DNA from: Streptomyces nanshensis
GTDB taxonomy: Bacteria > Actinomycetota > Actinomycetes > Streptomycetales > Streptomycetaceae
Direction of reading: 5' to 3'
NCBI RefSeq assembly: GCF_001751255.1
Contig: NZ_LJGW01000111.1
Span: 1 to 64,000, forward strand
Length of the DNA stretch: 64,000 nt
Numbering within the stretch: the stretch's first letter is position 1; every line of letters starts with the position of its first letter. The notes under the pieces are model-generated. The model did no database searches. It saw only the letters and a list, made by a program, of their open reading frames with translations, and had not been told where the DNA came from. Shown here piece by piece: positions 21,490-46,890 of this stretch. The translations under genes were made by a program, and so were the position numbers.

Positions 21490-21504
21490 TGGAAATGATT
21501 GTCA
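21490..21504. promoter_or_regulatory. Zur-like operator upstream of the exporter operon
   Basis: TGGAAATGATTGTCA matches 12 of 15 positions of the Streptomyces Zur core TGAAAATCATTTTCA as I know it. It lies 35 bases upstream of the first start of the 49-residue ORF plus ABC exporter operon. Confidence 0.7.
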
Positions 21505-26860: not shown

Positions 26861-28210
26861 TCAGCTCTCCTTGGGGACGACGTAGGGGGCGACGCTGAGG
26901 AGCTTTTCGCAGGTCTCCTCGTACTCGCGGCTGGGGCGTGAGGCGCCGACCACACCGGCGCCCGCGCGCAGCCAGGCCCGTCCGCCGTGCTGGTACACGG
27001 CCCGCAGCACGAGTGCGGCGTCGAGCGACCCGTCGGCGCCGGCCAGCACGACGGCGCCCGCGTACATGCCGCGCGGCCGGTCCTCCAGCTCCCTGATGAG
27101 CCGGTATGCGGCCTGTTTGGGGATGCCGGAGGCCGTGACGGGTGGGAACACGGCGCTGAGAGCGTCCCAGGCGGTGCGTTCTTCGGAGAGTTCGGTGGCC
27201 ACACGTGAGGCGAGGTGCTGCACGCTGCCGCGGGGCTTGACCGCGAGGAACTCCCGTATGTGCGTGGTGTGCGGGATGCCGACGGAGTCGAGTTCCTCAA
27301 CGGCCAGCTTCACCGACGTCGCGTGCTCGTACACCTCTTTGGCGTCGCGCCGGAGTTCGGTGCGCAGCGCCGTGTCGGTCTCCGGCACCCCTGTCAGGGC
27401 ACGGGTGCCGGCGAGAGGCTGGGTGACGGCGGTGCCCCCGGCGGACACTTCGACGACCGTCTCCGGGCTGAAGCCCGCGGCCTGCCGGCCGCCGAGATCG
27501 AGGAGGAAGGAGCGTGCGGGGGTGTTGGCCGCTCGCCCGCGAACATAGGTCGCGGTCATGTCGACGGTGAAGGGGAGTTCCACGCTGCGCGAGAGGATGA
27601 CCTTGTCGAGTTCTCCCTTGCCGATCTGCCCCACGGCGTAGGCCACTTGGTCCTCGTACGCCTTTCGTGCTCCGTGAACCGTGACGGGTCTGAGGACGGG
27701 GTCAGGCGTGTGTTCGGAGCAGGCGGAGAGGACCTTGGCCAGGCGCTCGGTGATCTCCGGTTCGAGTGTCCGGACGTGAATCCTGTCTTCGGTCACCGTC
27801 AGTTCGGTACGAGGAACGATGAGGTGAGCGAGGAGTCCGTCCCCCTCTTCGCCTCCCTCGCCGGCGAGAGCGGAGGCGGGCGGGCTTTTCGTCACGTCGG
27901 CCAGTTCGAAGGCCAGCCATCCGAAGGCGTTCCAGTCGACGACGGGCAACCCGTCCAGGGCGGCACGTATCGCTTGCCAGGGACTGGCTGTCCAAGGGAC
28001 CGCTGTCTCGTCGGACGCCGCGCGGGTCGTACGAACGGTGTGGGCGTCAACTCTGATCTCGGCGCTGGGGTTTCCCGCGACGTGCCAGTGGTCGTCGCGC
28101 TCGTAGACGACATAGTCGGTGAGCAGGCCCGAGTCGGCGAGACGCGCGATGAACGCCATCGGGTCGAGAGGCCCGTCGATACATGCGTGTTCGTAGTGCT
28201 GCTGTTCCAT
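26861..28210 (-). CDS. Salicylate synthase (Irp9/MbtI family)
   Basis: A 449-residue chorismate-utilising enzyme converting chorismate to salicylate and pyruvate by way of isochorismate. The chorismate-binding core is complete: general-base Lys in [12 protein letters not shown], then [30 protein letters not shown], the SVQHLASRV metal region and [15 protein letters not shown]. Its length agrees with single-chain salicylate synthases rather than the two-gene PchA/PchB system, and no separate lyase gene is present. It lies 21 bases after NRPS2. Confidence 0.92.
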
Positions 28211-28231: not shown

Positions 28232-31200
28232 TCAGCGCTTGGGCGACGGGAGCAGCGGAGCGGCCACGAGTTCGGCGACCCGGCCCGCGTTGGGCTCCTC
28301 GATGCAACTGAAGTGGTTTCCTTCGACGTCGGTCACCGGCAGGTTCCCGATGCACACGTCTCGCCAGAAGGCGAGCGTCGTCTCGTCCATGCCGGGTGCG
28401 AACCCCGAAGCGCCGCGCGGCCGCAGAAAGCGGATGTCGCCCGCGTACGGCGGCGGCGTGAAGCGCGCGGAGAGGAAACTCTGGCGGAACACCTTGAACA
28501 GTGCCGTGACCATGTCGGCCGGCACCGCCTCGCCGCTCTCGCGGGAAGCGGTGCGCGCATACACCTCGAACCGCTCCTCGCGTGTGAAGGAGCGCAGGTG
28601 CCGGAAGAACGCGCCTGCCTCGTCCAGTTGGGCGTCTCCCCCGACGGCGTCGAGGGCGCCCTGCGGCACCTTGCCGTCGTTGCGGTCGATGACGTGCATG
28701 AAACCGCGTACGAGTGTGTCGCCGTCGAGGTCTCCCAGGCCGGTCTGCGCGAACGAGATGTGCAGGTTCGGCAAGAAGAGGATCTCGATCATCAGGTCGT
28801 CCTCGACGTCGATGACGACGGGGTGGCTGCTGATGAGGACGAGATCGTCGACGGTGACGCCGCGTTCCTCCAGGCGCCGGGCGACCTCGGTGGCGTAGAG
28901 GCCGCCGAGGCAGTAGCCGATGAGCTGGACGCGGCCGTGGCCTTCGGCGAGGATGCGCTCCGCGTAGTCGTCGGCGGCCCGTTCGACGACGGTGGCCGGG
29001 TCGAGCGAGCAGTAGCGTTCGGTGTCGTCGATGACGATGCCGAGAACCGGGCCGAGATCCTGTTCGACGAGACGGCCGGCGAGCGGCCGGTAGCAGTCCA
29101 TCGTGCCGAGCCCCGCGTGGAACATCACGCGGAGAGGGCCCTCTCCGGAGGTGCTGAAGGGCATGAGCGCGGCGTTGCCGGTCGTTGCGCGGCGCAGGGC
29201 CGGCTGGGCGGCGGTGGAGTCATCCGCGTCCAGGAACTGGGCGAGTTCGGCGACGGTGGGGCGGTTGAGCAGGTGCCGCAGCATCGTGTCGAAGGGCACG
29301 TCCGCGGCTTCGGGAATCTCCTCGCGGATGCGTCCCGCCATCCGGGCCATGATGAGCGAGTCGGCACCGTGGTCGTAGAAGTCGTCAGTGCGTCCGATCC
29401 TGCCGCTGGGCAGGGCCGCGGCCCAGAGTTCGGCAAGGCGTGCTTCGAGCGCGCCGACCGGTGCCTCGTCGGTGAGATGCTGCTGCTCCTCTGCGGGGGT
29501 TGCGGGACGCCAGTGGCGGAGAGTCGTGCGGTCGACCTTCCCGTTGCGGGTCAGCGGGAGTGCGTCGGCGATCTGTATGTGGGAGGGGATCATGTGCGCC
29601 GGGAGCCGTTCCCGTACGAATGCGGTCAGTTCGGCCTCGGTGGCACCGGCGCGGGATGTCTTGACGCGTGCGGCGAAGAGGTGCAGGTGCTGGTCGCCGA
29701 GTACGTGGCCGTGGCCGGGAAGGCACAGCACCTCCTCGGCGCCGGACTTCGCGAGGCGCTCCAGCCACTGCTCCCGGTCCAGGTAGGAAGGACCGTCGTG
29801 GGCGCGGCCGTCCTGGGGCTCGGTCATCATGAACGCCTGTGAGGCGAGGATCCAGGGGTGCTCGCGCGTGGGCTCCGTCAGCAGGAGCCAGCCGCCGGGA
29901 GCGACGAGTTCGGTGAGCCGCGCCAGTGCCGCGTCGATGTCCCGTGCGTTCTCCAGGACTCCCGCGGCGAGCACCACGTCGAAGGAGTTGGGCGCCAGGC
30001 CCTGGTCGCGGTAGCCCTCGTCGATGTCGAACACGCCGAAGCGGACGCTTGCGTGGTGACCGAAGCGGCTCCGGGCCTCCGGCAGGAAGAAGGGGGCGAC
30101 GTCCGTGAACAGGTAGTCGGTGTCCCGTCCGGCGAGAGAGGCCAGCGCGTCCTCGGTGGTGCCGCCGGTGCCCGCGCCCGCTTCCAGGACTCGCAGCGGA
30201 CGGTCCTCGGGATGTTCGGAGGCGATGCGGGAGAGGGCGGAGGCGACAGCCTGGTTGAGGTAGCGCGCCGCGGCGTTGTGCCGGTAGAGGGCGTGGGCGG
30301 TGTCGAACGAGCCGTCCGGGAACAGGAGTTGCACGGGGTCCTTGGTTCCGCGCAGCAGTTCGGGGAGACGGCTCGCATGTTCCCGGACATAGGCGAGGAC
30401 GTCGCGGGAGGCGATCTCTTCCCTCCATGCCGCTTCGGCGTCCGACCACCGGCGCTCCACCGTGCCGTCATCGGCATGGCTGATGCCCGCTTCGCTCAGG
30501 ACCGCGGCCCACCGGCGCACCAGCCAGTGATGGCGCGATGCCACTCCGGCTTCGCGCAACCGGGCCTCGGAGATCTCGCCGGCCTGTGCCGGGAGTCCCA
30601 TCGTGGCCAGCGCGCCGGCCATGGAGGTCAGCACGGCGGTGTCGAACGATGCGATGTGGGCTGCCGTTTCGGCCTGTCCCACCGCCGGGAGGGTCGCGTC
30701 GGCCGCCTTGCTCACGCTCGGCCCGAGGGCGGTGGCTCCTTCCCCGGGTTCGTCCGTGGCCGTGGTCTCGACGACACCGAGAAGGCCGCGTTCCGTGCCC
30801 GTCCCGTCGGCGACCACGCATGCGGTCGCCACGGCCGGATGGTCGCAGAGGGCCGCCTCGATCTCGCCCAGTTCGATGCGGTGACCGCGCACCTTGACCT
30901 GGGTGTCCTCACGTCCCAGGAACTCGATCTCGCCTCCGGGCAGATAGCGGCCCATGTCACCGGTGCGGTAGAGGCGTTGGCCGTCCCGGGGGTGCGCGAT
31001 GAACCGGTGCGCGGTGGTCTCCTCGTCGCCGAGGTAGCCCTGTGCGAGGCCGTCGCCGCTGATGTACAGCTCTCCTGTCACCCACACCGGGCAGTCGCGC
31101 AGGGCCGTGTCGAGGACGCGGAAGCCCTGGTTGGCCAGCGGGAGGCCGTAGGGGACGCTCGGCCTGCCGGCGTCAGCGGGGACGCAGGGGTGGTGGATGG

Positions 31201-33682
31201 ACCAGATGGAGGCTTCGGTGGCGCCTCCGAGGGAGACGACGTTCAGGCCCGGCAGCCGACGGGTGATCGCGCCGGGCAGGGGGACGGGAATCCAGTCGCC
31301 GGAGAGAAGGGCGAGCCGCAACGTCGGCAGTCCGACGTCCTTCTCACCGTCCAGATACGTGGCGAGCATCTGCATCAGCGCCGGTACCGAGTTCCAGACG
31401 CTGACGCCGTGTTCGGCGATGAGCTGCGCCCAGTGGGACGGGTCGGTGCTGCGTGCGGGGTCGGGCAGGACGAGGGCGCCGCCGGTCGAGAGAGGGCCGA
31501 AGACATCGAAGACGGAGAGGTCGAATCCGAGGTTGGCAAGGCCCAGGACCCGGTCGTCCGCGCCGATCTCGAAGCGCCGGCCGATGTCCACCAGGGTGTT
31601 GAGGGCGGCGCGGTGGCTGATCACCACGCCCTTGGGGCGTCCCGTGGACCCGGAGGTGTAGATGACGTACGCGGGCTCGTCGGGGTCGCGTTCGATGTCG
31701 TCGTACGCCTCGTCCGTGGACACCGGCTCGACACTGTCGACGGCGACGACCCGGTAATTTTCTTCCCGAAGGCCGGCGTTCACCCAGGACTGTGTGAGGA
31801 CATGCCGCACCCCCGCGTCGGTGAGCATGGCGGTACGGCGCCGGACCGGCTGAACCGTGTCGACCGGCAGATAGACGCAGCCGGCGAGCAACGCACCGAG
31901 CACGGCGACGACTTGCTCGGCTCCCTTGTCCATGACGACGGCGACGCGCTCTCCCGAAGCGCAGCCGGCGGAGCGCAGTTCGCGGGCCACGCCCCGGGCC
32001 CGCGCGGCGAGTTCGGCGTAGGTCAGGGTGCCGTCCGGCGTGATGAGGGCGGGCCGGTCAGGCGTGCGGAGCGCTTGGGCGAACACGCCGTGGTGCAGGA
32101 GAGCGTCGGGCAGCGGGGCCGAGGTGTCGTTCGCGCGCCGCCGTTCCTCGGCCTGCCAGCGGGGCAGAGCGATCGCGTCCTGCGCGTCCCAGGGCTCCTC
32201 ACCGTCCGCGAGGTGGCGCAGCAGCCGCTCGAAGGCGTCGAACATGTCGTCCACGAGGCCGTCGGGGAACACCCCTTCCCGGACGTCCCAGTTGACCTGG
32301 AGTCCTTCCGCGTCATCCATGGCCTGGCAGTCGATGAACACCTGGGGCGTCTGTGTGATGCCGTAGCCGTCCAGCCGTCCCGACGCACGCGACTCCGTTG
32401 CGGCGTCCGCGAGTCCGATCGCGCTGGTGAACACGACGGGCATCAGCGCCGCTTCGCGACCGCGGTGGCGTGCGAGTTCTCGCAGTACCTCGACACCCGA
32501 GTACAGGCGGTGGTCGAGGTCTTCGAAGAGCTGCCCGGCCACGGCCTGGGCGCGCTCCGTGAAGGTGGAGTCCCCGCCCTCTTCGACGGCGAGGAGGTTG
32601 ATGGACGTGAAGTCGCCGACGATGCGGCCGATGTCCGGATGGAGGGGAAGACGGTTCAGGACCGTGAGGTTGAGACAGAAGTCCCGGGTCCGGCTCCAGC
32701 GTCCGATCACCGCGGCATAGGCCGCGAGCACGACGGACGAGGGCGTGACGCCACGGCGCTGTGCGCGGTCCTTCAACTGCTCCCAGGCAGCAGTGTCCAG
32801 CTTGAGGAAGCGGCGACGGAACCGGGGCGCCACGGCGTCGTCGTCGACGACGGGCAGGTCGGGAGCCAGGGGCAGAGTGTCCAGACGCGCGAGCCAGTAC
32901 TGCTTGTCCCTCTGGTACGCCGCGGTCTCCTGAAGTCCCCGTTCGGCCAGCAAGTAGTCCCGGAATCGCACCTGAAGCGGCTGGAGCCGGGTGCCGGGAT
33001 CGCTGTGCAGCGCCTCGAACTCAGCCAGCAGAAGCCAGATGCTGGCCCAGTCCGCGATGAGGAAGTCCATCGACAGGTGGAGCACGGCCCGGGTGTCGGT
33101 GCGGGTGACTCGCAGGTCGAACAGGGGCCAGTGGGAACTGTCGTAGACACGGTGCCCCATGTCCTCGCGGGCTTGCTTGAGGGAGTTCTCCAGCCGCTCG
33201 GTGCCGGCGCCCCTCATGTCCTCCACGGGCACGGAGAGGCGGGGCACGGTCGGCAGAACACTCTGGTGCCCGGCCGGATCGATGACCGCGCGGAGCATGT
33301 CATGGCGTTCGACGAGCCGGTTCCAGGCGTCCTCGGTGCGTTCCGGGTCCAGGTCGGGGTAGGTGATCTCGAGGTAGACGTGGCACGCGACGCCCCCGTA
33401 GCCGAACGCCTCGTTACGGCCCAGCAGATAGGCGGACTGCACGTCGGTCAGGGGGAACGGTGCGTGCCTGCCGGCCGGGTCGGGCGTGAGTTCCTGGGGC
33501 TGGGCCTCACTTCGCAGGAGATCGAGTATCCGGGTCTTGCCGTCTTTGAGTTCCTGGAGCTGCTCGGGACCGAGGCTCCCTTTGGGGGCTCGGTAGCGGA
33601 GCGTCCCGTCCTGTTCCCATAGCTGCACGCCGCTGCGCCGCAGACGGGCGATGAGTTCGGCCGGGGTGGTGGTGCTGGTCAT
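28232..33682 (-). CDS. NRPS: docking-Cy-A(MT)-PCP-TE (PchF-like)
   Basis: 1816 residues. Domains in order: a TubC-like N-terminal docking domain (1-55), cyclisation domain (75-500) with intact DFLIADWAS, adenylation domain (520-1000, ending after 1440) with pocket residues reading D-L-F-N-L-S-L-I-W, which fits cysteine, an embedded methyltransferase (1100-1400) with intact SAM motif LEAGAGTGGTT, PCP (GADSL) near 1530, and a thioesterase (1580-1816). The thioesterase elbow reads GYCLGG, so the nucleophile appears to be Cys, with His in VEGNHFSCI. It adds, cyclises and methylates a third residue and releases the product. The start overlaps the FAD oxidase stop (ATGA). Confidence 0.92.
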   Translation of the reverse strand: MTSTTTPAELIARLRRSGVQLWEQDGTLRYRAPKGSLGPEQLQELKDGKTRILDLLRSEAQPQELTPDPAGRHAPFPLTDVQSAYLLGRNEAFGYGGVACHVYLEITYPDLDPERTEDAWNRLVERHDMLRAVIDPAGHQSVLPTVPRLSVPVEDMRGAGTERLENSLKQAREDMGHRVYDSSHWPLFDLRVTRTDTRAVLHLSMDFLIADWASIWLLLAEFEALHSDPGTRLQPLQVRFRDYLLAERGLQETAAYQRDKQYWLARLDTLPLAPDLPVVDDDAVAPRFRRRFLKLDTAAWEQLKDRAQRRGVTPSSVVLAAYAAVIGRWSRTRDFCLNLTVLNRLPLHPDIGRIVGDFTSINLLAVEEGGDSTFTERAQAVAGQLFEDLDHRLYSGVEVLRELARHRGREAALMPVVFTSAIGLADAATESRASGRLDGYGITQTPQVFIDCQAMDDAEGLQVNWDVREGVFPDGLVDDMFDAFERLLRHLADGEEPWDAQDAIALPRWQAEERRRANDTSAPLPDALLHHGVFAQALRTPDRPALITPDGTLTYAELAARARGVARELRSAGCASGERVAVVMDKGAEQVVAVLGALLAGCVYLPVDTVQPVRRRTAMLTDAGVRHVLTQSWVNAGLREENYRVVAVDSVEPVSTDEAYDDIERDPDEPAYVIYTSGSTGRPKGVVISHRAALNTLVDIGRRFEIGADDRVLGLANLGFDLSVFDVFGPLSTGGALVLPDPARSTDPSHWAQLIAEHGVSVWNSVPALMQMLATYLDGEKDVGLPTLRLALLSGDWIPVPLPGAITRRLPGLNVVSLGGATEASIWSIHHPCVPADAGRPSVPYGLPLANQGFRVLDTALRDCPVWVTGELYISGDGLAQGYLGDEETTAHRFIAHPRDGQRLYRTGDMGRYLPGGEIEFLGREDTQVKVRGHRIELGEIEAALCDHPAVATACVVADGTGTERGLLGVVETTATDEPGEGATALGPSVSKAADATLPAVGQAETAAHIASFDTAVLTSMAGALATMGLPAQAGEISEARLREAGVASRHHWLVRRWAAVLSEAGISHADDGTVERRWSDAEAAWREEIASRDVLAYVREHASRLPELLRGTKDPVQLLFPDGSFDTAHALYRHNAAARYLNQAVASALSRIASEHPEDRPLRVLEAGAGTGGTTEDALASLAGRDTDYLFTDVAPFFLPEARSRFGHHASVRFGVFDIDEGYRDQGLAPNSFDVVLAAGVLENARDIDAALARLTELVAPGGWLLLTEPTREHPWILASQAFMMTEPQDGRAHDGPSYLDREQWLERLAKSGAEEVLCLPGHGHVLGDQHLHLFAARVKTSRAGATEAELTAFVRERLPAHMIPSHIQIADALPLTRNGKVDRTTLRHWRPATPAEEQQHLTDEAPVGALEARLAELWAAALPSGRIGRTDDFYDHGADSLIMARMAGRIREEIPEAADVPFDTMLRHLLNRPTVAELAQFLDADDSTAAQPALRRATTGNAALMPFSTSGEGPLRVMFHAGLGTMDCYRPLAGRLVEQDLGPVLGIVIDDTERYCSLDPATVVERAADDYAERILAEGHGRVQLIGYCLGGLYATEVARRLEERGVTVDDLVLISSHPVVIDVEDDLMIEILFLPNLHISFAQTGLGDLDGDTLVRGFMHVIDRNDGKVPQGALDAVGGDAQLDEAGAFFRHLRSFTREERFEVYARTASRESGEAVPADMVTALFKVFRQSFLSARFTPPPYAGDIRFLRPRGASGFAPGMDETTLAFWRDVCIGNLPVTDVEGNHFSCIEEPNAGRVAELVAAPLLPSPKR

Positions 33683-35079
33683 TGCTCGGACTCCTTGGCC
33701 GCGGCGGGCGGGACGTTGGCGTTGAAGCGGAAGAGGTTGTCGGGGTCCCAGGCCTGCTTGAGGCGGGCGAGACGTTCGTACGTCGCACCGCCGTACGCGG
33801 CACGCACCCACTGCGGTTCCGGGTCGGGAAGCAGGTTGACGTACGGGCCCTGGGTGACGTTCTGAAGCCCCTGCCAGGCGGTGCGTGCCGGTTCCAGGTG
33901 GGCTTCGCTGGCGGCGTCGCCGTACCACTGGGCGCAGAGTTCGACGAACCACTGCGCACCTCGGTGGGCGAACGCCGTCTGTCCGGCCGGTGCTCGGGTG
34001 ATGGCTCCGCCGAGGGCTCCGAGGACGACGGAGTAGTTGGGGCCGGCGGTCTCCCAGTGGCCGATGAGCCGGTCGACGGTGGTGTCCGACAGTTCGGGAA
34101 ACAGTTCACCGCGGTTGTAGACGTGCTGCTCGCGGTACCGGGGCGGAGAGGGCAGCAGCCGCTGGTACGCGACGTAGGACATCTCGCCGACCGTGTCGGA
34201 GACAGGGCGCACAGCGCCGCGGCGCAACGGCGCGAGGACGTCTGCGGCTTCTTCGGGCGGCCCGAAGAAGGTCGGAATGAGCACAGCGCAGCGCTCGAAG
34301 TGCAGCCGCTCCGGTACGAAGGGCAGGGGCGGCGCGTTCCAGAGGACGGCGACGAGGGAGGCAGCGTCGGGCGCGGTGGACAGCCAGTCCCGTGCAGCAC
34401 GCAGAGCAGTGGACGCCTGATGCGCGGGATGAGTCAGCGCACCGGCGGTGACCGTCGTGACCGGGTGCAGCGCGAATCCGAAGCGGGTGACGACGCCGAA
34501 GTTTCCGCCTCCCCCGCGCAGCGCCCAGAACAGCTCCGGGTACTGCTCGGCGTCGGCTCTGATGTGGCGGCCTGTCGCCGTCACCAGGTCGAAGAAGGTG
34601 ACGTTGTCGCTGGTGAGACCGTGCCGGCGGGACAGATCACCGACTCCGCCGCCGAGGGTGTGGCCGCCGACGCCGACGTCGGCGTTGCGCGGGCCGGGCA
34701 CGGCCAGCCCGAACTCCTGTGTGGCGGCGTCGAGTTCGCGCCAGGTGACACCGGCACCGACGACCGCGGTGCGGCCCAGCGGATCGACGTCGATGTCTTT
34801 CATCCCGCCCATGTCGATGACCACGCCGTCGTCACAGGTGCCCCAGCCCGCGACGTGGGCTCCGCCTCCGCGGACGGCCACGGGCAGGCCGGATGCGCGG
34901 GCGTGGGCGAGCACGGCCATGACGTCTTCGGCGTCGTTGCAGCGGGCGATGAGCGCCGGACGACGGTCTATCCGGGCGTTGCGAACACGGCGTGCGCGGT
35001 CGTAGCCGGGCTTGTCCGGTGTGACGGTACGGCCCTGGAAGCCGGGCAGTTCGGCGCCGATGCCGGGAGTGGCGCCCAT
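33679..35079 (-). CDS. FAD-linked oxidase (berberine-bridge/PCMH type)
   Basis: A 466-residue oxidase. The FAD-binding PCMH domain shows VAVRGGGAHVAGWG (candidate His for covalent FAD) and VGVGGHTLGGGVGDLSRRHGL, and the C-terminus has the berberine-bridge motif YGGATYERLARLKQAWDPDNLFRFN (by position, residues 428-452). The usual second covalent Cys is not seen. It sits inside the NRPS operon and overlaps the next gene, so it very likely tailors the metallophore, for example by oxidising a ring or an alcohol. That role is inference. I know of no equivalent in pyochelin or yersiniabactin loci. Confidence 0.82.
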   Translation of the reverse strand: MGATPGIGAELPGFQGRTVTPDKPGYDRARRVRNARIDRRPALIARCNDAEDVMAVLAHARASGLPVAVRGGGAHVAGWGTCDDGVVIDMGGMKDIDVDPLGRTAVVGAGVTWRELDAATQEFGLAVPGPRNADVGVGGHTLGGGVGDLSRRHGLTSDNVTFFDLVTATGRHIRADAEQYPELFWALRGGGGNFGVVTRFGFALHPVTTVTAGALTHPAHQASTALRAARDWLSTAPDAASLVAVLWNAPPLPFVPERLHFERCAVLIPTFFGPPEEAADVLAPLRRGAVRPVSDTVGEMSYVAYQRLLPSPPRYREQHVYNRGELFPELSDTTVDRLIGHWETAGPNYSVVLGALGGAITRAPAGQTAFAHRGAQWFVELCAQWYGDAASEAHLEPARTAWQGLQNVTQGPYVNLLPDPEPQWVRAAYGGATYERLARLKQAWDPDNLFRFNANVPPAAAKESEQ

Positions 35080-35081
35080 GG

Positions 35082-35786
35082 CTACTCCTCCCCCGCCGGT
35101 GCCCTCAGCACGGCACCGTGCAGCTTGGCCTCGTCCAACGGGCGGGAGAGACCGGCGACTTCGACGGACAGCACACCCGTCGCGGGTGCCTCCTGCACGG
35201 CAAGGGGCCCACGAGGTTCGACATGCGCGATGAGGGCCTCGAAGGCGGTGCGGTCCTTCTCGCTCACACCCATCCGGACGGTCGCGATGTGCTGCGCGCC
35301 GTTGGGATGCCGTACGTCGGCAGGGCGTTGGGGCGGGTCGTAGGCCGATACGACGAAGGGAAGCCCTGAAGGCCGCACGGTGAGGAACTGGTAGCGCACC
35401 GGGACGCCGTCCGGTGGCGTGCGGCGCCCTCTCATGACGCGCGAGGTCTTCACACCGCCGGACTTCAGCGTGGTGCGGACGCCGGCCAGTGCGGTGTCAT
35501 CGGTCTCCAGCGCCAGATCGCGCCAGCCCTCGCCGGGGCCCGCCCAGCGGGCCAGCCGTTCTCCCGCCGCGGCGCCGTAGCCCAGGGTCGCGGGCCATTT
35601 CAACAGCCGGAAGGCGCGGGGCAGTTCGAAGAACTCGACGAAGGGACCCTGTTCGAACCAGAGCAGGGCGTTGTGTGCCCGCTCGGGGATGCTGCCCCAT
35701 TGCAGGGAGAAGCCGAGTTCCCGGTAGTCCAGCACGGTCGAGTGGATGTCGTCGACCTTGCACAGGATGTGACTGCATCTCAGCAC
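35082..35786 (-). CDS. Glyoxalase/VOC-fold protein of unknown role
   Basis: About 234 residues from GTG 35786, which has AAGGA at good spacing. The N-terminus (RCSHILCKVDDIHSTVLDYRELGF, by position) and the repeated beta-alpha-beta-beta-beta pattern suggest a vicinal oxygen chelate or Glyoxalase_3-like fold. Such proteins either bind metal for small-molecule chemistry or sequester a compound for self-protection. It sits 2 bases before the FAD oxidase gene in the NRPS operon, so a tailoring or metallophore-binding role is plausible but unproven. Confidence 0.6.
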   Translation of the reverse strand: MLRCSHILCKVDDIHSTVLDYRELGFSLQWGSIPERAHNALLWFEQGPFVEFFELPRAFRLLKWPATLGYGAAAGERLARWAGPGEGWRDLALETDDTALAGVRTTLKSGGVKTSRVMRGRRTPPDGVPVRYQFLTVRPSGLPFVVSAYDPPQRPADVRHPNGAQHIATVRMGVSEKDRTAFEALIAHVEPRGPLAVQEAPATGVLSVEVAGLSRPLDEAKLHGAVLRAPAGEE

Positions 35787-35805: not shown

Positions 35806-38097
35806 CTAGCGGAAGCGGGCGATGAGGAGTCGTTGGCCCAGGGGGGCGAGGGGGTGCTCCTCGTGCGGCAGGGTTTCGACGGACTCCGCACCGGCGCCTG
35901 CAAGAACGTCGAGCCACTGCTGCCGGGAGAGGAAGGTGGTGTCGGCTCGGCGTCTGGCGTCCTCGGCGGCCGTCATCATGAATGCCTGGGACGCCAGGAT
36001 TTCCAGATGTTCGCGGGTGGGTTCGGTGATCAGCAGCAGGCCGCCGGGCGTCAGCAGTCTGACGAGGGAGCGCACGCTCGTATCCGTGTGCTGCGCGTTG
36101 TTGAGAACACCGGCGGCGACGACGACGTCGGCGCTACCCGACCGCAGCCCTTGCGCAGCCGGATCCTGGTCGACGTCGTACAGGCCGTGCCGGATCCATC
36201 GTTGAGCCGCGAAGCGCTCCTTGGCCGCGGCGACGAAGAAGTGCGAGACGTCGGTGAAGAGGTAGTCCACGGCCGGCTCAGTCCCGTGGCTGCCGGTGAG
36301 CGCGTCGATGACAGCCTCAGTCGTCGCTCCGGTGCCGCCCCCGACCTCGAGCACACGCAGCGGGCGGTCGGTGGTGCGGCCCGCGGCCAGCGACGAAACG
36401 GTCGCCGCGACAGCCGTGTTGAGATACCGGGCGGTGACCGGGTCGCGGTAGACGGAGTCCGCGAGGTGCGTCTGTCCCTGTGGAAAGAGAAGCAGGGCGG
36501 CCTGCTGCCCGCCCGTCATCAGGTGCGGAAGCCGGTCGGCGTTGTCCCGGAGGTACGTGATGAACGCGTCAGGTCCGAGGCCCTGACACCAGCTCTCGGC
36601 GGCGGTTTCCCAGGCCCGGCGTACGTCCGCTTCCGTGCGCGACGGCGCACCGCGGAAGCCTTCGCCGTCCCGTGCGATGACCGACCGCTGGGCGAGTTGC
36701 TTCAGCCAACGGCGGATCAGCCCGTGATGCTGCGGAACCACGCCCGCGGTCTGCAGGACTTCCTCTTCCGTGTAGGTGCGTTCGGTGTCTCTCAGGGTTC
36801 CGGCGTGCTGGAGAGCTGTGATCATCGAGGCGAGCACCGCGTCGTCGAGTTGCCGTACGAAGTCGCGGACGAGCTGGGCATCGAGGTCGCCTACGCGGCG
36901 CTCTGCCGCGTCACGGGCCAGTCGGGCCAGCTCTCCGGTCTCCACCTCGCGCAGCGGGGAAGTCTGCGTGACGGCCGGTGCCGCAACACCTGGTGCGGGC
37001 GCGCTACTTGGGGCGTCCTGGGCCGTGGCGGCTGCCAGCTCCGAGGCCGGCAGCCGCCGATAACGCTGATGAGGGCGCAGAGACGGGTAGCCGAGTTCCT
37101 TGGTGAGGTCCTGCCACATACGAGCCAGGGTCAGTTGGTACTGGTGAGGCCGGCCGGCGCAGGATTCGCCGAGGACGGCGGAACGTGCCGTCCGCAGGTC
37201 GTCGCGGATGGCGAGCGGCCACTGATCACGCAGCACATGGCGGTAGTCGGAGGAGGAGGCCGCCTCCAGCACGAGCGTGCTGGGTTCGGCCAGGTGCTCA
37301 GTACCGGGAGCGTCGAAGTCGAAGCGGTTCTTCACGGATTCCGGTATGTGCAGGCGCGGGCTCCACGACACGGGGCCGTGGGTGTCGGCGAGGGTGAGGC
37401 CGCCGCTGTCAGTGCCCAGGGTGACGCGGTGCAGGAGATGCAGGTGGTTGTCCGGGTCGTCGGGGTCGACCTGGTTGTGTACGCGCAGGGTGAGCGGCAC
37501 CGCCCCGAACTGCCCGGTCAGGACGGTGAAGGGCGCCTCCGGTTCGGCGGGTGCGGCACGGATGTGCCAGGGCCGGAGGCTGCCGATCGACTCCCCGAGG
37601 ATGTGCAGCAGGGGAAAGGCGACCTGGGAGGCGCAGGCGGCGTCGACGTAGACGGCAGGCTGTCCGTCGAGTACATGGTGTGCCGCGTCGATGAAACGCC
37701 GGACTGCGGGGAGATGCACGTAGTGGTCACCGACGCGGTAGTCCACCTCGTGCCGCCGTGCTTCACGCAGGCACGCGACGAGGTCGTCGTGGTGTACGGG
37801 AGATTCCTGGACGACGTTGACGCCGCGGCTCAGCAGCCGCAGTGCCAGCTCGGTGCCGGCTCCCCCGAGGACTCCTGAGCGCAGCACGACGCAGGCGAGA
37901 TCCACGTCCTCGGGTAGCTGCTCCACGTCGGTGTAGAGCGGAACGCCGTGGCGGGCGGCGCAGTCGGCGGAGCGCCGACTGCCGGCTGCGAGCACCCCCG
38001 CGATCTCGAATTCGTCGGGGGAAGCGGCCAGTGCGGCGAGATGGAACTGCCCGAAGGTCGTGCCGCACACGACCGTCTTGAGTCGGCCTCCCTTCAC
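35806..38097 (-). CDS. Thiazolinyl imide reductase fused to a SAM methyltransferase
   Basis: 763 residues. Residues 1-370 match the PchG/Irp3 type: a Rossmann start (KTVVCGTTFGQFHLAAL), the ESPVHHDDL segment and YRVGDHYVHLPAVRRF. These enzymes reduce a carrier-bound thiazoline to thiazolidine with NADPH. An Ala/Pro linker (about 370-400) leads to a second part ending in a methyltransferase with intact SAM motif RVLEVGGGTGATTEA and TPGGLLLITEPTREH. This part strongly resembles the NRPS2-embedded methyltransferase, including its upstream helical region. The GTG start overlaps the preceding stop by 4 bases. The fusion is unusual; PchG and Irp3 are single-domain as I know them. Confidence 0.85.
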   Translation of the reverse strand: MKGGRLKTVVCGTTFGQFHLAALAASPDEFEIAGVLAAGSRRSADCAARHGVPLYTDVEQLPEDVDLACVVLRSGVLGGAGTELALRLLSRGVNVVQESPVHHDDLVACLREARRHEVDYRVGDHYVHLPAVRRFIDAAHHVLDGQPAVYVDAACASQVAFPLLHILGESIGSLRPWHIRAAPAEPEAPFTVLTGQFGAVPLTLRVHNQVDPDDPDNHLHLLHRVTLGTDSGGLTLADTHGPVSWSPRLHIPESVKNRFDFDAPGTEHLAEPSTLVLEAASSSDYRHVLRDQWPLAIRDDLRTARSAVLGESCAGRPHQYQLTLARMWQDLTKELGYPSLRPHQRYRRLPASELAAATAQDAPSSAPAPGVAAPAVTQTSPLREVETGELARLARDAAERRVGDLDAQLVRDFVRQLDDAVLASMITALQHAGTLRDTERTYTEEEVLQTAGVVPQHHGLIRRWLKQLAQRSVIARDGEGFRGAPSRTEADVRRAWETAAESWCQGLGPDAFITYLRDNADRLPHLMTGGQQAALLLFPQGQTHLADSVYRDPVTARYLNTAVAATVSSLAAGRTTDRPLRVLEVGGGTGATTEAVIDALTGSHGTEPAVDYLFTDVSHFFVAAAKERFAAQRWIRHGLYDVDQDPAAQGLRSGSADVVVAAGVLNNAQHTDTSVRSLVRLLTPGGLLLITEPTREHLEILASQAFMMTAAEDARRRADTTFLSRQQWLDVLAGAGAESVETLPHEEHPLAPLGQRLLIARFR

Positions 38098-39194
38098 AGC
38101 GATCCTTCCTCGGTGTCGATGAGTTCGCCGATCGCCGCGTCGTGCGTCATGAGGTCGCACACGCCGGGCTCCGTGGTGAGCCGTTCGATCGCGGTGGTGG
38201 CGCCCAGAGCCGCCTCGGCCCGGTGCGCTCCGCGCGCGACCTCGCCCCGCAGCACGGCGAGGGCGGCGACTGCCGTCACGGCTCCGGTCAGTGCGGAGAT
38301 CCCGGGGGCCTTGAGCACTGCGGTACGCGTCGCCGGCTGCCGGGCTGCGGTGCCGTCGAGTTGGACGAGCAGCGTGAGATAAGGCGTGCGTCCGGCCACG
38401 TCGAGTGCGGTGGCCCGGCGGAGTCCGGCCACGGCATCGGCGCGAGGCAGAGAGTGGGCGGCTTCCAGTGCGCGCGTGAGGTGTTCACCGTCGATCGCGG
38501 TGTACCAACTGCCCCGGGTCAACGAGAGGTGCCGGGCGAGTCTCTCCCCCTCGCCGTCCAGGTAGGGCCATGCCACCACCGGCCGGGGTACGTACGGGAG
38601 TTGCCGACCCGGCAGCCTGGTGAGGGCACCGGAGCGGCGGGCGCCGTCCCGCCACGCGGCGAGCGGTTCGCTCTCCTCGCCGAGCACCCCGTCCAGGTAG
38701 TCCTCGGCACCGGTCCTGGTGAAGCGGTCCAGGACGGCCGTGTAGGAGGTCAGCTCTTCCACACGGTCGAAGTGCCGCGCGGCCAGCCACCGGGGCAGCA
38801 GCCCGGTCAGTCCCGGAAGAGCGCCCGCCTCGTACAGCGCGACACGCTCTCCCACGGCGGTGCTGATGCGCTCCGGAAGCCGGCCTCCTCCGGAGTCGAC
38901 GAGGTGGGCGCCCGCCATCAGCGCGGCGTAGGTGACCCGTTGCGAGGTCAGGTGCGAGGGGCCCGCGCAGTGGAGGACGAGGGAGCAGCCGCGGACGAAA
39001 GCGGTAAGAGACGCCGCATCGTCGATGTCGACGGCGACCGCCTCGGCACGGGTCGCGGGGAGGTCGTTGGCGATGAACTTCTCGGCCCGTACTGCGTCAC
39101 GGCCTCCGATGCGCAGCGGTCCCGCGTCCCACCGGGCGAGCAGCCGCGCCGCGTACCCGCCCACGTCGCCGTACCCACCGAGGATTCCGATCAC
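38094..39194 (-). CDS. Saccharopine-dehydrogenase-like NAD(P)-binding protein
   Basis: A 366-residue protein starting directly with a Rossmann motif (IGILGGYGDVGGYAARLL), followed by VLHCAGPSHLTSQRVTYAALMAGAHLVDSGGG (by position, residues 80-112), which is the saccharopine dehydrogenase/trans-enoyl-reductase-like layout. It overlaps NRPS1 and the reductase gene by 4 bases each, so it is tightly coupled to assembly. It may be a second ring or imine reductase, or may act on a late intermediate. The precise reaction cannot be read from the sequence. Confidence 0.72.
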   Translation of the reverse strand: MIGILGGYGDVGGYAARLLARWDAGPLRIGGRDAVRAEKFIANDLPATRAEAVAVDIDDAASLTAFVRGCSLVLHCAGPSHLTSQRVTYAALMAGAHLVDSGGGRLPERISTAVGERVALYEAGALPGLTGLLPRWLAARHFDRVEELTSYTAVLDRFTRTGAEDYLDGVLGEESEPLAAWRDGARRSGALTRLPGRQLPYVPRPVVAWPYLDGEGERLARHLSLTRGSWYTAIDGEHLTRALEAAHSLPRADAVAGLRRATALDVAGRTPYLTLLVQLDGTAARQPATRTAVLKAPGISALTGAVTAVAALAVLRGEVARGAHRAEAALGATTAIERLTTEPGVCDLMTHDAAIGELIDTEEGSL

Positions 39195-42100
39195 AGGACG
39201 CCCTCCTCGGTCTCTTCCAAGGAGCCCTGATGCGCGTCCAGTTCCCGGGAGAGGGTCTGGGCGATCTGCTCCGGGGTGGGGCCCTGGAACATACGCCGCA
39301 GCGGAAGCCGCACGCCGAAGCGCTGCGCCAGCCTGGTCAGGAACCGGGTCGCCAGAAGGCTGTCGCCGCCCAGGGCGAAGAAGTTCTGCCTGCGCCCCAC
39401 AGCGGCCACGTCGAGCAGTTCGCACCAGATCCCGGCGACGGCTTCCTCCAACTCGCCCTGTGGTGGCTCGTCCGGGGTGTCGGACTGTCCGAGACCGGCG
39501 GCAGCGGCGACTGCGGAGCGGTCGACCTTGCCGTTCGCGCCGAGCGGCAGCCACGGCAGCACGGTGATCCGGTCGGGGAGCATGTGCGCCGGCAGATACG
39601 CGGCCGCGTGGTCACGCAGCGACGTGGGGTCGAGATCCGCCGCGTGAGGAGACCTGCGGGCGGTCAGCACCTCGGTGAAGGACGTGTGCACCGGCCGGTG
39701 AGTGAAGTTCCGGTAGCCGGCCGCGGACAGCAGTCCGGCCCAGCGTGCCGCAGCCAGCGTGGGTGTCCCGGCGGTTCGGCGCTCTCGGTCGAACGCGGCG
39801 TATCCGCCGTCGAGCAGGCCTGCTGTCAGCAGGGCGACAGGGGTCAGCTCGGAGCGCTCCACGGCCACGAGCAGTCCCCCGGGCCGGGTCAGCAGCGCGG
39901 CCAGCGCCGGGCCGCGGGACGGTTCCGGGCTGCGGTGGAGGACGTGGTCGAGGACGACGGCGTCGAATCGGTGACGCAACTCCTCGGGCACCGCCAGGCC
40001 GGGCAGTCGGCGGCATGCGACCTCGTGAGCGCTGCCGGTGAAGCTCCGGGCCGCCTTTTCCACCTGGTCGGGGTCGTTGTCGAGCAGCGTGCAGCGCACT
40101 TGATCCTGTGTCAGATCTTCCAACAGCCGCCCGACCGCGCCGGGTTGGCTGCCGAGTACGGCCAGCTCCAGGGGCCGGTCCGCTCCCGCCGTACTGTCGG
40201 CGACGATCGCGGCGACGTCGTCGATCGCGGTGGCGGTGCCCGGGTCGGCGGCCGACAGGCGCGAGGGCGCGAGGATGTCGTCGTCGAGAAGGACCGACGG
40301 GTCGAGGCGGCCGGCGAGGATTTCCCGGAAGTCCCCAAGCCGGTCCGTCAGGCGCCGCTGTGCCTGAGCGAGCAACTCGCCGTAAGCGTCGTGCTGTTCG
40401 AGGAGCCTCCCGACGAGCGCGGCACCGGCCTCGGGACCGGGTGCGTACCCCGTCGGCGTTGCGAGCAGGACCTTCCGTTCCGCGAGCCACTTCAACCAGA
40501 GGCGGAGAACGGGCAGATGGGGCTCGGCGGCCCGAACCCGGCCGGCCCACTGGGCGACCGTGAGGCTCTCCTGGCCGCTGAGGTCGTCGAGGTGCAGGAG
40601 CCGGGCCAGGAAGGACTCGGCAACGGCGCTCTCGCGCTCCCGTGCACGGCGGCGGAACTCCTCGGTGGAGGAGGGGGGTTGCCCCTGTTTGACGGGGTCA
40701 CTGACGGGATCGCTCGCGGGAGCGGCGGCGGGGACGACCGCGGCCACCAGCCGGCGTGAGGCGCCGTCGCCCGCCACGGTGACCACGGAATGGCCCACTC
40801 CAGGCGTCTCCAGCAGCGCTGCCTCGATCTCGCCGAGTTCGATGCGGTGGCCCCTGATCTTGACCTGCTGGTCGGCACGGCCGAGGAACTCCAGCGTCCC
40901 GTCGGGCCAGTAGCGTCCCAGGTCCCCTGTGCGGTACCAGCGTTCTCCCCGGTCTTCGACGAACCGTTCTTCCGTCAGCTCCGGCGCACCCCGGTAGCCG
41001 CGGGCGAGGCCCGCGCCGCCGATCCACAACTCACCGGGGACCCGGTCCGGGCAGTCACGGCCGTGTGTGTCGACCACCCGGTAGCGCTGTCCGCGCAGCG
41101 GGTGCCCGTAGGGAATCGAGGGCCAGTCGCGCACGACTTCGGCGACCTCGAACGCGTTGGACCAGATCGCCGCTTCGGTCGCACCGCCGAGGGCGACGAA
41201 GCGCGCCCACGGACTCTGGTCGGCCAGCCGTCCGGGGAGGTCGAGGCCCACCCAGTCGCCGGAGACCAGGGCCAGCTCCAGCGAGTCCGCCGGCTGCGCC
41301 GCTTCCGCGACGACGAGCAGCATGTCCAGAAGCGCCGGCACGGTGTTCCACACGGTCACCCGGTGCTGACGGACCAGGTCCAGCCAGCGCCGTGCGTCAC
41401 GTCGGTCTTCCTCGTCGATCAGGACCAGCGCTCCGCCTGCCGAGAGCAGACCGAAGATGTCGTACACCGACAGGTCGAAGTCCAGCGCCGAGACGGCGAG
41501 AACCCGGTCCCGCTCCCCCACTCCGTAGCGCTGGTTGATGTCGGTCACGGTGTTCGCCGCGGCACGGTGGGTGATCTCGACCCCCTTGGGGTCGCCGGTG
41601 GAGCCCGAGGTGAAGATGACGTAGGCCAGCGCGTCCACCGGGACGTCGACCGGCCCGTCCGCCGCTCCGCCCGACGGCACCGCGTCAACGCTCAACCGCC
41701 GTATGCCGTCCGGCGTGCTGGGACCGGACCCCGACGGTGCGGCGTCCGCGGAACCGGTCACGACCAACCGTGTGCCAGCGGTCCGGTGAATGCGCTCCTG
41801 CCGCGCGGGCGGCTGATCGACGCCGACGGGAACGTAGGCGGCTCCGGCCGCGAGCACTCCCAGGACCGCCGTGATCTGCTCCGAGCCCTTGGGCATGCTG
41901 ACGGCGACGGGTTCGCCGCGGGCGACGCCGTGTTCGCTCAGCACCGCCGCCAACCGCAGTGCGCGGTGGGCGAGTTCGCCGTAGCTCATCCTCCCGTCCT
42001 CGCCCCACAGCAGGGCTGTACGGTCCGGCTGCTCGGCGGCGCGGCAGAAGAAGTCACGGTGCAGCAGACCCGGTACCCCGTCGCCGGTGTCGTTGACTCC

Positions 42101-45100
42101 GGTACGCACAGCGCGCTGCGCGTCGGGCAGCAGGTCGGGGACGGGCTCGTTCCAGTCGTGCTCGGCCAGCCATTCCAACAGCCGTGTGTAGGCGGCGAAC
42201 ATCGCCTCCACGAACCCGTCGGGGAAGAGCTCCTCGACGACGTCCCAGTTGAGGTGCACACCGTCGGCGTCCTCGGTGACCTGGTGATCCAGCCAGACCT
42301 GCGGCGTCTGGGAGATGCCCCACACGTCACGTTCGAAGGGCGCGCCGGGGGAATCGCCGCCCAGCCCGAGAGCGGAGGTGAACACCACGGGCATGGTGGT
42401 CTCAGGCGTGCCGGTACGGCGGGCCAGTTCGCGCAGCACCCACACCGCCGAGACCTCACGGTGGTCGAGCGAACGCCACAACTCCCGCTGTACACGGCGG
42501 GCTCTGGCAAGCCAGCTCTCCTCCGCACGGGGCCGGGAGGAGACAAGCATCAGCGAGGTGAAGTCGCCGAGCACATTGCCGATGTCGGGATGGACGTCAC
42601 GGCGGTCGAACAGCGTGAGGTTCAGGGTGAGTTCGGGCCGGGCGCTCCAGCGCCCCAGGACCTCGGCGAAGGCCGTGAGCAGTACGCCGGAGGGGGTGAG
42701 CCCCGCATCCCGCGCACGGCCGGTGAGCGCCTGCCAGCGTTCCGGGGCGATATGTGCCGCGTGCCGTACGAAACGGGGGCGAGCGACCTCGGACGGGTCC
42801 TTCGCGAGCGGCAGGGCAGGGGGCGGCGGCAGGCGGTCGAGCTGTTCGCTCCAGTAGTCCCTCGCCGCGGCGGCGGTCTCGGGGTCGGGGCCGCAGGTGT
42901 GCACGTAGTCCCGGAACGAGACCTCCACAGGCGGCAGTTCGGCTTCCGGGTCGGTGTAGAGAGCGGACAGCTCCGCGTAGAAGACGAGGATGCTCAGGGC
43001 GTCGAGGGCGATGTTGTCGATGCCGATTCCGATGCGGGTCTGCGCGCCGGAACGCACTCCGCGGACCGCGAAGAGCGGCCACGTTCCGGGATCGAAGACC
43101 TGGTGGGAGGCGGTGTCCCGAAGGCGGGTGCAGGCCGCCTCCATGTCGGGGCCGGCTTCCTCGATCTCCACGTGAAACCGGGGCACTTGGGGAAGGACGC
43201 GCTGTTCGCCACTATCGTCGACGACCGCGCGCAGCATCTCGTGCCGGGCGACGAGCCTGTCGAGGGCCGCCTCCAGGCGCTCCACGTCCAGGTCTTCGAC
43301 GTCGTACTCACGGTAGAAGTGACAGCCGATGCCGCCGAGCGTGAAGTCCTCACCGCGCCCGAGCCAGTAGGCACGCTGGACGTCGGTCAACGGGAAGGGC
43401 TCGTGGCGGCTTTCCGGATCGGAGATCAGCGGACGCGGGGCGGGCCGCCTGCCGTCGGGCGTCAGCAGTGCGGCGAAGTCCGCGAGCACCGGAGCGGCGA
43501 ACAGTTCGGAGAGCTGTACTCCGCCGTGCCCGTCGCCGCGCAGGCGCGCGATCATGCGCGTCGCCAGCAGTGAGTCACCGCCGAGGGCGAAGAAGTCGTT
43601 TTCGCGGCCGATGCCGTCGAGGTGGAGGACCGAGGACCACACGTCGGCGACCTGCTGCTCCCGCTCCCCGCGCGGCGGGGTGACCGCTCTGACTTCGCTC
43701 CGCGCGTCGCATTGCGTGAGGAGGCGTCGCACGGCGCCGCGGTCGGTCTTCCCGTTGGACGTCAGAGGGAACTCGGCGGTCACCAGGCAGCGTTCGGGAA
43801 CCATGGCGGCGGGCAACTGCCCCGCCGCGTGGGCACGCACCTGCGCGGGGTCGGCGACGCCGGTCACCGCCACGCCCAGTCGTCCGTCCTCATCGACGAC
43901 CGCGACCGCTCTCTCCACGCCGGGGGCCGCGGCGAGTACGGCCTCGATCTCGCCGAGTTCGACGCGATGGCCGCGTATCTTGACCTGCTGGTCGGCACGG
44001 CCCAGGAACTCCAGCGTCCCGTCCGGCCAGTAGCGGACCAGGTCGCCCGTGCGGTACCAATCCGTCCCGTCGACGGCTGTGAACTTCTCGGCCGTGCGGG
44101 CCTCGTCGCCCCGGTAGCCTCGGGCGACACCGGCCCCGCCGATCCACAGTTCGCCCGGGACCCAGTCCGGGCGGTCACGACCGTGCGGATCGACGGCGCG
44201 GCATCCGACACCGCGCAGCGGGGTCCCGTACGGCACCGAGGTCCACGCGGCCGGGACCCGCTCCACCTCACAGAGAGTGGAGTGGATCGCGGTCTCGGTG
44301 GTGCCGCCCAGGGCCACGAACCGGCAGTCAGGAGCAGCACCGCGCACGCGGCCGGGCAGATCGAGCGGGATCCAGTCCCCGCCCAGCAGTGTGAGCCGGA
44401 GGTCAGGCAGGCCCTCGGGACCGGCAGCGGTGATCAGCATGTCGAGCAGCGCGGGAACGCAGTTGACGACGGTCACTCGGTGGATTCGGGCCAACTCGGC
44501 CCAGGCAACGGCGTCCCGGCGTGCCGCTTCCTCGACGCAGACCAGGGCGCCGCCCGCCGTGAGGGACCCGAAGACGTCGTACACCGACAAGTCGAAGTCC
44601 AGTGCCGACAGCGCGAGCAGGCGGTCCGAACCGCCCACGACGAACCGGTCGTTGAGGTCGGCGACGGTGTTGAGCGCGGCCTTGTGCGTGATCTCGACGC
44701 CCTTGGGCTCTCCGGTCGAGCCCGAGGTGTGGATGACGTAGGCGAGGTCCGAGGCGTCGCCGGGTACGGGTGCGGGCAGCGGCTCGGCGTTCCGGCAGAC
44801 GCTGAGATCGTCGAGGACGAGGCGTGTTCCGGCAGCGGCGAGGATGCGGTCACGCCGTGCGGCGGGCTGGTCGACGCCGAGCGGCAGGTAGGCCGCGCCG
44901 GCGGCGAGGATGCCCAGCACGGCGACGATCTGATCGGTGCCCTTGGGCAGGGTCAGGGCGACGAGGTCTCCCGGCGCGACGCCGCTGGAGCGCAGGTGCC
45001 CGGCCACGCGAAGGGCCCGTTCGGCGAGTTCGCCGTACGTCATCGACAGGCCGTGCTCCCCCACCAGGGCGAGCGCTTCGGGATCCTCGGCCGCATGCGC

Positions 45101-46825: not shown

Positions 46826-46875
46826 CCGGATGCAACCCCTCACGACAGATTTCGGTCAGCCACCGGGGACCATAA

Positions 46876-46890
46876 TGGAAACGATTATCA
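46876..46890. promoter_or_regulatory. Zur-like operator between NRPS operon and MFS gene
   Basis: TGGAAACGATTATCA lies 51 bases from the NRPS start and 64 bases from the MFS start, in a divergent promoter. It resembles the 21490 site (TGGAAATGATTGTCA) and matches the Zur core at 11 of 15 positions. One bound repressor could shut both directions. Confidence 0.7.

Follow-up and report, generated by a model that had tools for sequence, protein, structure and literature searches.

The window analysed here, a 64,000-nt stretch of Streptomyces nanshensis DNA (RefSeq assembly GCF_001751255.1, contig NZ_LJGW01000111.1, positions 1 to 64,000), holds the gene set of a sorangibactin/coelibactin-type metallophore: a salicylate synthase, an aryl-AMP ligase (below the NCBIfam cut-off), two nonribosomal peptide synthetases (NRPS1 and NRPS2), a saccharopine-dehydrogenase-like protein, a thiazolinyl imine reductase, a VOC protein and a thioesterase with an active-site Cys. 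The reductase is the N-terminal half of a longer protein, the C-terminal half of which is an S-adenosylmethionine (SAM) methyltransferase (Table 1). An earlier note on this DNA had read the gene as a reductase–linker–methyltransferase fusion, and here the fusion is found to be real and conserved.

Reading frame, model and recurrence of the fusion

The minus-strand frame 38160–35806 is open throughout, with zero internal stops, and translation probably starts at the GTG at 38097, which follows a GGAAGGA sequence and shares bases (GTGA) with the stop codon of the saccharopine-dehydrogenase-like gene before it; the resulting protein has 763 aa. From here on, residues are numbered according to the 784-aa frame P0001, except for the linker positions of the AlphaFold model, which follow the 763-aa protein. 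Residues 28–360 matched the TIGR01761 thiazolinyl imide reductase family (315.7 bits, cut-off 188.8); Irp3-like_C was also matched in Pfam, and Irp3 in the Protein Data Bank (PDB) was matched with an E value of 1.6e-41 at approximately 30% identity. From residue ~419 to the end, the protein matched SAM methyltransferases (Pfam Methyltransf_12, 2.9e-16), and the CurJ C-methyltransferase 5thy, the nearest solved methyltransferase by sequence, aligned to residues 426–780 with its N-terminal helical part included (E 1.9e-34). An AlphaFold model of the 763-aa protein from a 20-row alignment (mean predicted local distance difference test (pLDDT) 86.5, predicted TM score (pTM) 0.53) comprised two well-folded halves joined by a linker with pLDDT <50 at residues 362–380, the pTM meaning that the relative placement of the halves is not fixed by the model. 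The best PDB matches of the model in Foldseek were the CurJ C-methyltransferase (TMt 0.88) for one half and Irp3 5kvq (TMt 0.85) for the other; a PHROGs search gave no match. The open frame, the domain matches and the two-half model agree on the arrangement that the earlier note had described.

Table 1 Features of the fused gene and of the surrounding cluster (positions in the window)
Feature	Position	Strand	Remarks
Fused thiazolinyl imine reductase–methyltransferase gene	35806..38097	-	763 aa from GTG 38097
Thiazolinyl imine reductase (Irp3/PchG type) domain	37075..38079	-	P0001 residues 28-362; TIGR01761; Irp3 4gmf/4gmg; fold 5kvq
Interdomain linker, partly disordered	36907..37074	-	low pLDDT; gap between hidden Markov model (HMM) matches
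SAM methyltransferase with helical leader (trans-methyltransferase clade, SrbG/MchG position)	35809..36906	-	
SAM-binding motif I	36328..36351	-	LEVGGGTG
Asn687 (VLNN)	36100..36102	-	place of the C-methyltransferase catalytic His
Glu713 codon	36022-36024	-	dyad partner of Asn687
Tyr147	37720..37722	-	equivalent of Irp3 Tyr128, kept
Ser120	37801..37803	-	place of Irp3 His101
Saccharopine-dehydrogenase-like oxidoreductase (SrbE-like)	38094..39200	-	start inferred from sequence
Glyoxalase/VOC protein (SrbJ-like)	35082..35786	-	start inferred
Berberine-bridge-type FAD oxidase	33679..35079	-	
NRPS2: TubC-Cy-A(MT)-PCP-TE	28232..33952	-	outer limits of open frame
NRPS2 embedded methyltransferase	29660..30700	-	Glu/Glu at dyad positions
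NRPS1: ArCP-Cy-A-PCP-Cy-A(insert)-PCP	39191..46843	-	Pfam: 3 carrier, 2 condensation, 2 adenylation
NRPS1 insert, methyltransferase-fold domain without SAM motif	39644..40756	-	perhaps PchE-type epimerase
Salicylate synthase	26861..28210	-	TIGR03494 445.3 bits, cut-off 325.15
Aryl-AMP ligase (salicylate/2,3-dihydroxybenzoate type)	25263..26858	-	TIGR02275 680.1 bits, under cut-off 723.55
Zur-box-like palindrome just upstream of NRPS1	46876..46890	+	

When 84,980 species genomes were searched with an alignment headed by the window protein, 236 relatives emerged, and the 80 best were kept. A full-length match within one gene was present in 13 of these 80, as one open frame in 12 of the 13, and the carriers comprise three Streptomyces (loci L051, L052 and L061), a Streptantibioticus (L053), six Brevibacillus, an Aneurinibacillus, a Paenibacillus metagenome-assembled genome (MAG) and an Aquimarina, which places the fusion in Actinomycetota, Bacillota and Bacteroidota. 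The gap between the two HMM matches is 42–69 aa across 13 unbroken fusions, that of the window included. Pseudomonas, Alcanivorax, Niveispirillum and a gammaproteobacterial MAG have matches to both halves, but in separate genes. Reductase-half matches occurred in 15 of 199 genomes of the genus (the window's included; one relative, G017, is truncated by a contig end), fused in the window's genome only; no further fusion was found in 396 genomes of the phylum at 1e-50 and none in 149 Pseudomonas genomes at 1e-15, with the best 5, 2 and 6 candidates per genome scored in the genus, phylum and Pseudomonas sets, respectively. A sequencing or assembly artefact is ruled out by the 12 unbroken relatives. 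No account of the fusion was found among the open-access papers searched, which did not extend to supplements or to most of the subscription literature.

A second kind of fusion was seen in one of the other 67 of the best 80 loci, where L094:4196-6499 (Sorangium cellulosum So0157-2) joins a reductase-like domain to an SrbF-type methyltransferase. This reductase-like domain is without the Tyr and His positions discussed below, and a separate reductase is encoded in the same cluster; a search of 56 other genomes from Sorangium's order gave no further example of this kind of fusion.

Catalytic positions of the two halves

The reductase half belongs to the same TIGR01761 family, and has the same fold, as Irp3/YbtU and PchG, from which it differs in being fused to a methyltransferase and in residues described next. 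We take Tyr128 and His101 of Irp3 to be catalytic. All 14 fusions and 80 of 82 unfused reductases keep the Tyr128 equivalent; at the His101 position the window protein has Ser, and His is present in 1 of 14 fusions and 69 of 82 unfused reductases, and because this position is variable we did not treat it as defining membership of the thiazolinyl imine reductases. A further difference is GDHY in place of NTFY around the Tyr. Across 59 strongly conserved columns the window reductase deviates in two, and in the window's own genome (96.6% complete; 11 of 11 candidates scored) the fusion is the sole TIGR01761 match; in a control of 14 named genomes, matches were present in three and above the cut-off in one. 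We read the reductase half as active, with some doubt. The alternative, in which catalysis by this half is lost or altered and its main task is to dock the methyltransferase onto the assembly line, is in keeping with the replaced His101 equivalent in 13 of 14 fusions and with the So0157-2 fusion, in which a reductase-like domain without Tyr and His is joined to an SrbF-type methyltransferase; the invariant Tyr, the two deviations in 59 columns and the absence of a second TIGR01761 match in the genome speak against it, and we consider it improbable.

In the methyltransferase half the SAM motif LEVGGGTG is intact, as the earlier note had stated. C-methyltransferases of the CurJ-type fold use a His–Glu dyad, according to PMC9821293; CurJ and other polyketide synthase (PKS) C-methyltransferases share the fold and helical leader of the fused domain, which has Asn–Glu in place of the dyad. 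Asn/Glu was found at the dyad columns in all 14 fused methyltransferases and in 17 of 17 stand-alone methyltransferases of the same clade (see below), that of Kribbella included, and SrbF-type proteins had His/Glu in 15 of 16 cases, the Sorangium protein having His/Asp. Among reference domains taken from Pseudomonas genomes and identified by gene layout and size, the PchF-like domain (L165, in a run of PchE-, PchF- and PchG-like genes) is Asn/Glu and the HMWP1-like methyltransferases are His/Glu in four of four (both domains of two proteins), as are five C-methyltransferase structures from a PDB profile search. PchF N-methylates a thiazolidine, and HMWP1 is a C-methylating enzyme. In an IQ-TREE phylogeny, the wider group of Asn/Glu and Glu/Glu methyltransferases takes in the PchF-like methyltransferase (support 95) and excludes the HMWP1-like ones.

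Because the dyad His is replaced by Asn, as in the PchF-like domain, the site points to methylation of the nitrogen of the new thiazolidine. Methylation on carbon, that is thiazoline alpha-methylation as in yersiniabactin, would suit the closest solved folds of the fused methyltransferase, which are C-methyltransferases, but the Asn in 14 of 14 fusions and the composition of the wider group make it very unlikely in our view. The PchF N-methyltransferase is of the same family, has the same Asn/Glu positions and falls in one supported group with the fused domain; the PchF-like methyltransferase is embedded in an adenylation domain and PchF's embedded domain works in cis, and since the fused methyltransferase is not so embedded, it would resemble PchF in its working at most and is not filed as PchF-type.

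Origin of the methyltransferase half and the NRPS1 insert

The earlier note had also taken the methyltransferase half for a stand-alone copy of an NRPS-type methyltransferase, resembling that of NRPS2, which may take over from a dead methyltransferase in NRPS1. The likeness to NRPS2 stands, at 41% identity over 350 columns (E 1.2e-81), compared with 26% to the NRPS1 insert (E 6.6e-5). The fused domain nevertheless belongs to a separate clade of trans-acting methyltransferases, and is not a copy of this NRPS2 domain. In a FastTree phylogeny of all extracted methyltransferase rows, and in an IQ-TREE phylogeny that omitted the NRPS1 inserts, the second fusion of L094 and part of the NRPS2 and unfused reductase rows (those included being random picks with a fixed seed), the 14 fused methyltransferases, that of L061 among them, fall into a single clade (FastTree 0.94, IQ-TREE 84). 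Its sister is a stand-alone methyltransferase of Kribbella sandramycini (FastTree 0.95, IQ-TREE 87), the gene of which lies on the opposite strand adjoining an unfused reductase; 16 stand-alone proteins in the SrbG/MchG position join next, support for the whole clade being 98 (IQ-TREE). Embedded NRPS2 methyltransferases, the window's own included, sit on other branches of both trees. A recent duplication of the NRPS2 methyltransferase is ruled out by the two trees. In the reductase tree, the fused reductases group at 100, and the Kribbella reductase falls on their side of the split from 35 unfused ones (support 84 or 100, as rerooting leaves the value of this branch ambiguous). A single fusion of a reductase with a trans methyltransferase of the SrbG/MchG kind, followed by horizontal spread, probably accounts for this pattern, the simplest history being that neighbouring genes fused once and were then transferred among three phyla.

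The NRPS1 insert, which the earlier note had regarded as the dead methyltransferase to be replaced, has a methyltransferase fold, and its SAM motif is not intact in the window or in Brevibacillus. Its His, of catalytic type, and its Glu are invariant in eight of eight aligned inserts. A profile of six inserts scored the PchE-like insert at 77.5 bits, the HMWP1-like methyltransferase at 47, the fused methyltransferase at 42, the NRPS2 methyltransferase at 37 and the PchF-like methyltransferase at 1.9. Against the PDB, an eight-insert profile matched PchE at 6.8e-22 and CurJ at 2.6e-43, six sequences (C-methyltransferases) outranking PchE, and phmmer with the insert alone gave weak methyltransferase matches only. 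In the PchE-like protein the dyad Glu column is occupied by Asp, and no position could be assigned to Glu1234, the second PchE residue. The inserted domain of PchE itself is described in PMC8807600 as a methyltransferase-fold epimerase that depends on a His. Judging by the direct comparison of profile scores, the loss of the SAM motif and the retention of the His, we consider the NRPS1 insert more likely to be an epimerase than a dead N-methyltransferase.

In six genomes with a stand-alone methyltransferase, the NRPS1 frames span 2166–2261 aa, compared with 2550 aa in the window, and so appear too short for an insert of the window's size; two of the six matches cross a TGA, and the domain layout was seen in three of the six. 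In these three, 237–253 aa follow the last adenylation core. The proposal of a copied NRPS2 domain replacing a dead NRPS1 methyltransferase can thus call on the destroyed SAM motif of the insert, the 41% identity and the better fit of the eight-insert profile to C-methyltransferase structures than to PchE; set against it are the grouping of the fused domain with stand-alone trans methyltransferases, the preference of the six-insert profile for the PchE-like insert over methyltransferases, the His and Glu in eight of eight inserts and the NRPS1 frames seemingly too short to hold an insert, and there is little chance, in our judgement, that it is correct.

Presence of the insert is related to that of another protein. 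An SrbF-type protein is encoded in 16 of 17 stand-alone loci, the exception, Kribbella, carrying an NRPS1 insert; no such protein was seen among the 14 fused loci, of which L060 and L061 are short upstream. Where the NRPS1 end is visible in fused loci, it carries an insert-sized tail (12 of 12), as does L133, the NRPS1 contig of strain MspMP-M5. Loci without a trans methyltransferase have a short NRPS1 tail in 45 of 52 cases, and at least one of the other seven (L033) differs in module order. The SrbF-type protein and the insert never occur together in trans-methyltransferase clusters that show both regions, and they may be alternatives for one job. The SrbF-type protein, with a dyad His like that of the NRPS1 insert, may be a trans epimerase.

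Proposed role, cluster context and metal

We propose that the fused protein is likely a trans-acting bifunctional reductase/N-methyltransferase for the ring made by NRPS1 module 2 of a salicyl-capped metallophore of the sorangibactin/coelibactin type. Its N-terminal half would reduce the C=N bond of a carrier-bound thiazoline with NADPH to give a thiazolidine, like Irp3, PchG and SrbI, and its methyltransferase half would then add a methyl group to the nitrogen of the reduced ring. The likeliest target would be the ring loaded by NRPS1 module 2, a module without a working methyltransferase, and the embedded NRPS2 methyltransferase would serve ring 3. That the protein acts in trans on carrier-bound intermediates, as the earlier note had suggested, is probable by homology; NADPH use, methylation of nitrogen rather than of carbon or oxygen, the choice of ring and a benefit from coupling are what we infer.

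The proposal draws on clusters in which the same steps are divided. According to PMC10127202 and PMC10080011, the SrbI/MchI reductase and the SrbF/G and MchF/G methyltransferases are encoded by separate genes, and a P450 is present. The gene content of the sorangibactin and mupirochelin clusters is close to that of the window, SrbI and SrbG, or MchI and MchG, being separate proteins there and one chain here. The fused methyltransferase shares a clade with the SrbG/MchG-position proteins of Sorangium and Pseudomonas, these names being given to L094 and the Pseudomonas genes by gene order and not by comparison with the sequences of MSr11367 and NCIMB 10586; since the SrbG/MchG type means a separate gene, the C-terminal half described here is a fused variant and not a member. 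The sorangibactin study (PMC10127202) reports two N-methylthiazolidines, with stereochemistry given as undetermined, and the loss of sorangibactin A after deletion of srbI and after deletion of SrbE/F/G, the passage being ambiguous as to joint or separate removal. By our own reading of the formula given there, the shunt product of the srbI deletion fits neither reduction nor methylation.

The assignment of rings was considered from the NRPS2 side. Of 101 loci examined, 96 have a reductase, and 15 of these yielded no NRPS2 methyltransferase; in the others the NRPS2 methyltransferase is without the dyad His wherever a trans methyltransferase is present (25 of 25 loci) and has the His in 48 of 56 loci without a trans methyltransferase. 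In four fused loci, of Brevibacillus (L057, L058 and L063) and Aquimarina (L062), the NRPS2 stretch from the adenylation core to the thioesterase is 412–457 aa, compared with 655 in L054, and is without a SAM motif, the fused methyltransferase being intact. It is possible, although we doubt it, that the fused methyltransferase serves ring 3 or both rings and not ring 2 alone. This reading would explain these four loci, but the NRPS2 methyltransferase has a Glu/Glu site in 10 of 14 fused loci, and is probably used for ring 3 there. Because the fused domain is the only family methyltransferase with an intact SAM motif found in the same four loci, a related and equally tentative reading is that the fusion is a portable reduce-then-N-methylate cassette that works iteratively on successive carrier-bound rings, with the NRPS1 insert, or its SrbF-type counterpart in unfused clusters, as an epimerase. 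If so, the three methyltransferase-fold domains would be two that N-methylate and one that epimerises.

Several observations weigh against the ring-2 reductase/N-methyltransferase role. Missing from 13 of 14 fusions, the His101 equivalent is not the only change in the reductase half, since the 14 fusions and Kribbella have GD at residues 144–145, before the catalytic-type Tyr, where N-T/S is usual; with these two changes, the rate, stereochemistry or substrate may differ from those of the usual reductases. The Asn-for-His rule was drawn from one PchF-like and four HMWP1-like domains and PKS structures, and the nearest solved folds are those of C-methyltransferases. Shared ancestry confounds the association of NRPS2 sites with trans methyltransferases and accounts for part of it, six loci pair an Asn/Glu NRPS2 methyltransferase with no trans methyltransferase in view, and the window's NRPS2 domain has Glu and not Asn, which makes its role on ring 3 less sure. 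An unfused, long-branch reductase from Ruminiclostridium (L073) lies within the fused reductase clade, so that a fission or a long-branch effect is possible, and L061 (MspMP-M5) shifts frame in the linker, between the halves. To our knowledge, no fused protein has been assayed or linked to a product.

Both enzyme types are familiar from related pathways, and what is new is their arrangement: two steps that are divided, in pyochelin-type pathways, between a separate reductase and an NRPS-embedded domain are joined here in one chain. The fusion has moved among Actinomycetota, Bacillota and Bacteroidota. As a free-standing maker of N-methylthiazolidines, such a pair would be useful in pathway engineering, the assignment of rings and methyl groups becomes testable by domain deletions, and the bookkeeping of sorangibactin, with three methyltransferase-fold proteins or domains for two N-methyl groups, becomes a concrete prediction.

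The backbone made by the window's cluster is likely, as we infer from related clusters, to be an aryl-oxazol(in)e with two rings derived from cysteine after it. For sorangibactin, feeding led to the assignment of serine to the first adenylation domain (PMC10127202); the first adenylation domain of NRPS1 has LGGTTETAIH, as in the Sorangium homologue, and the second LGGATEAAIW, the Sorangium counterpart being LGGATEASIW. In NRPS2, the thioesterase motif is GYCLGG, and GYC occurs also in the PchF-like thioesterase. No P450 of the SrbH/CYP105N1 kind was found among the genes scanned, which covered part of the window. A berberine-bridge-type oxidase stands in the operon where the sorangibactin and mupirochelin clusters have a P450, and may oxidise the first ring; this oxidase was also matched in L051, L052, L061 and the Kribbella locus L089, and not in L053.

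The cluster may be regulated by zinc. With a Zur-box pattern allowing ≤3 mismatches, the window contains five Zur-box-like palindromes, at 21490, 46876, 49801, 50161 and 63771, against 0.03 expected; an iron-box pattern had no match in the window. Boxes also lie beside the NRPS1 start in the fused loci L051, L052, L053 and L133 and in the unfused Alcanivorax locus L132 (15 loci scanned), and a perfect box lies ~0.8 kb upstream in Kribbella; for these six, no box arose in any of five random sequences per locus. No Zur-like box was found in L031, L032, L034, L084, L094, L131 or L165, and in the AT-rich L054 and L062 the matches were indistinguishable from chance, among the matches listed. Genes for FUR-family, CobW-like and metal-ABC proteins are nearby, with no FUR-type model above the NCBIfam cut-off. 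Coelibactin is reportedly under the control of Zur, and the boxes and these genes make it plausible that the product here is likewise a zincophore. Another Zur-like box of the window is at the start of an ABC transporter pair, and a PatB-family C-S lyase-like gene (window positions 18960-20144; under the model cut-off) adjoins an ABC transporter pair.

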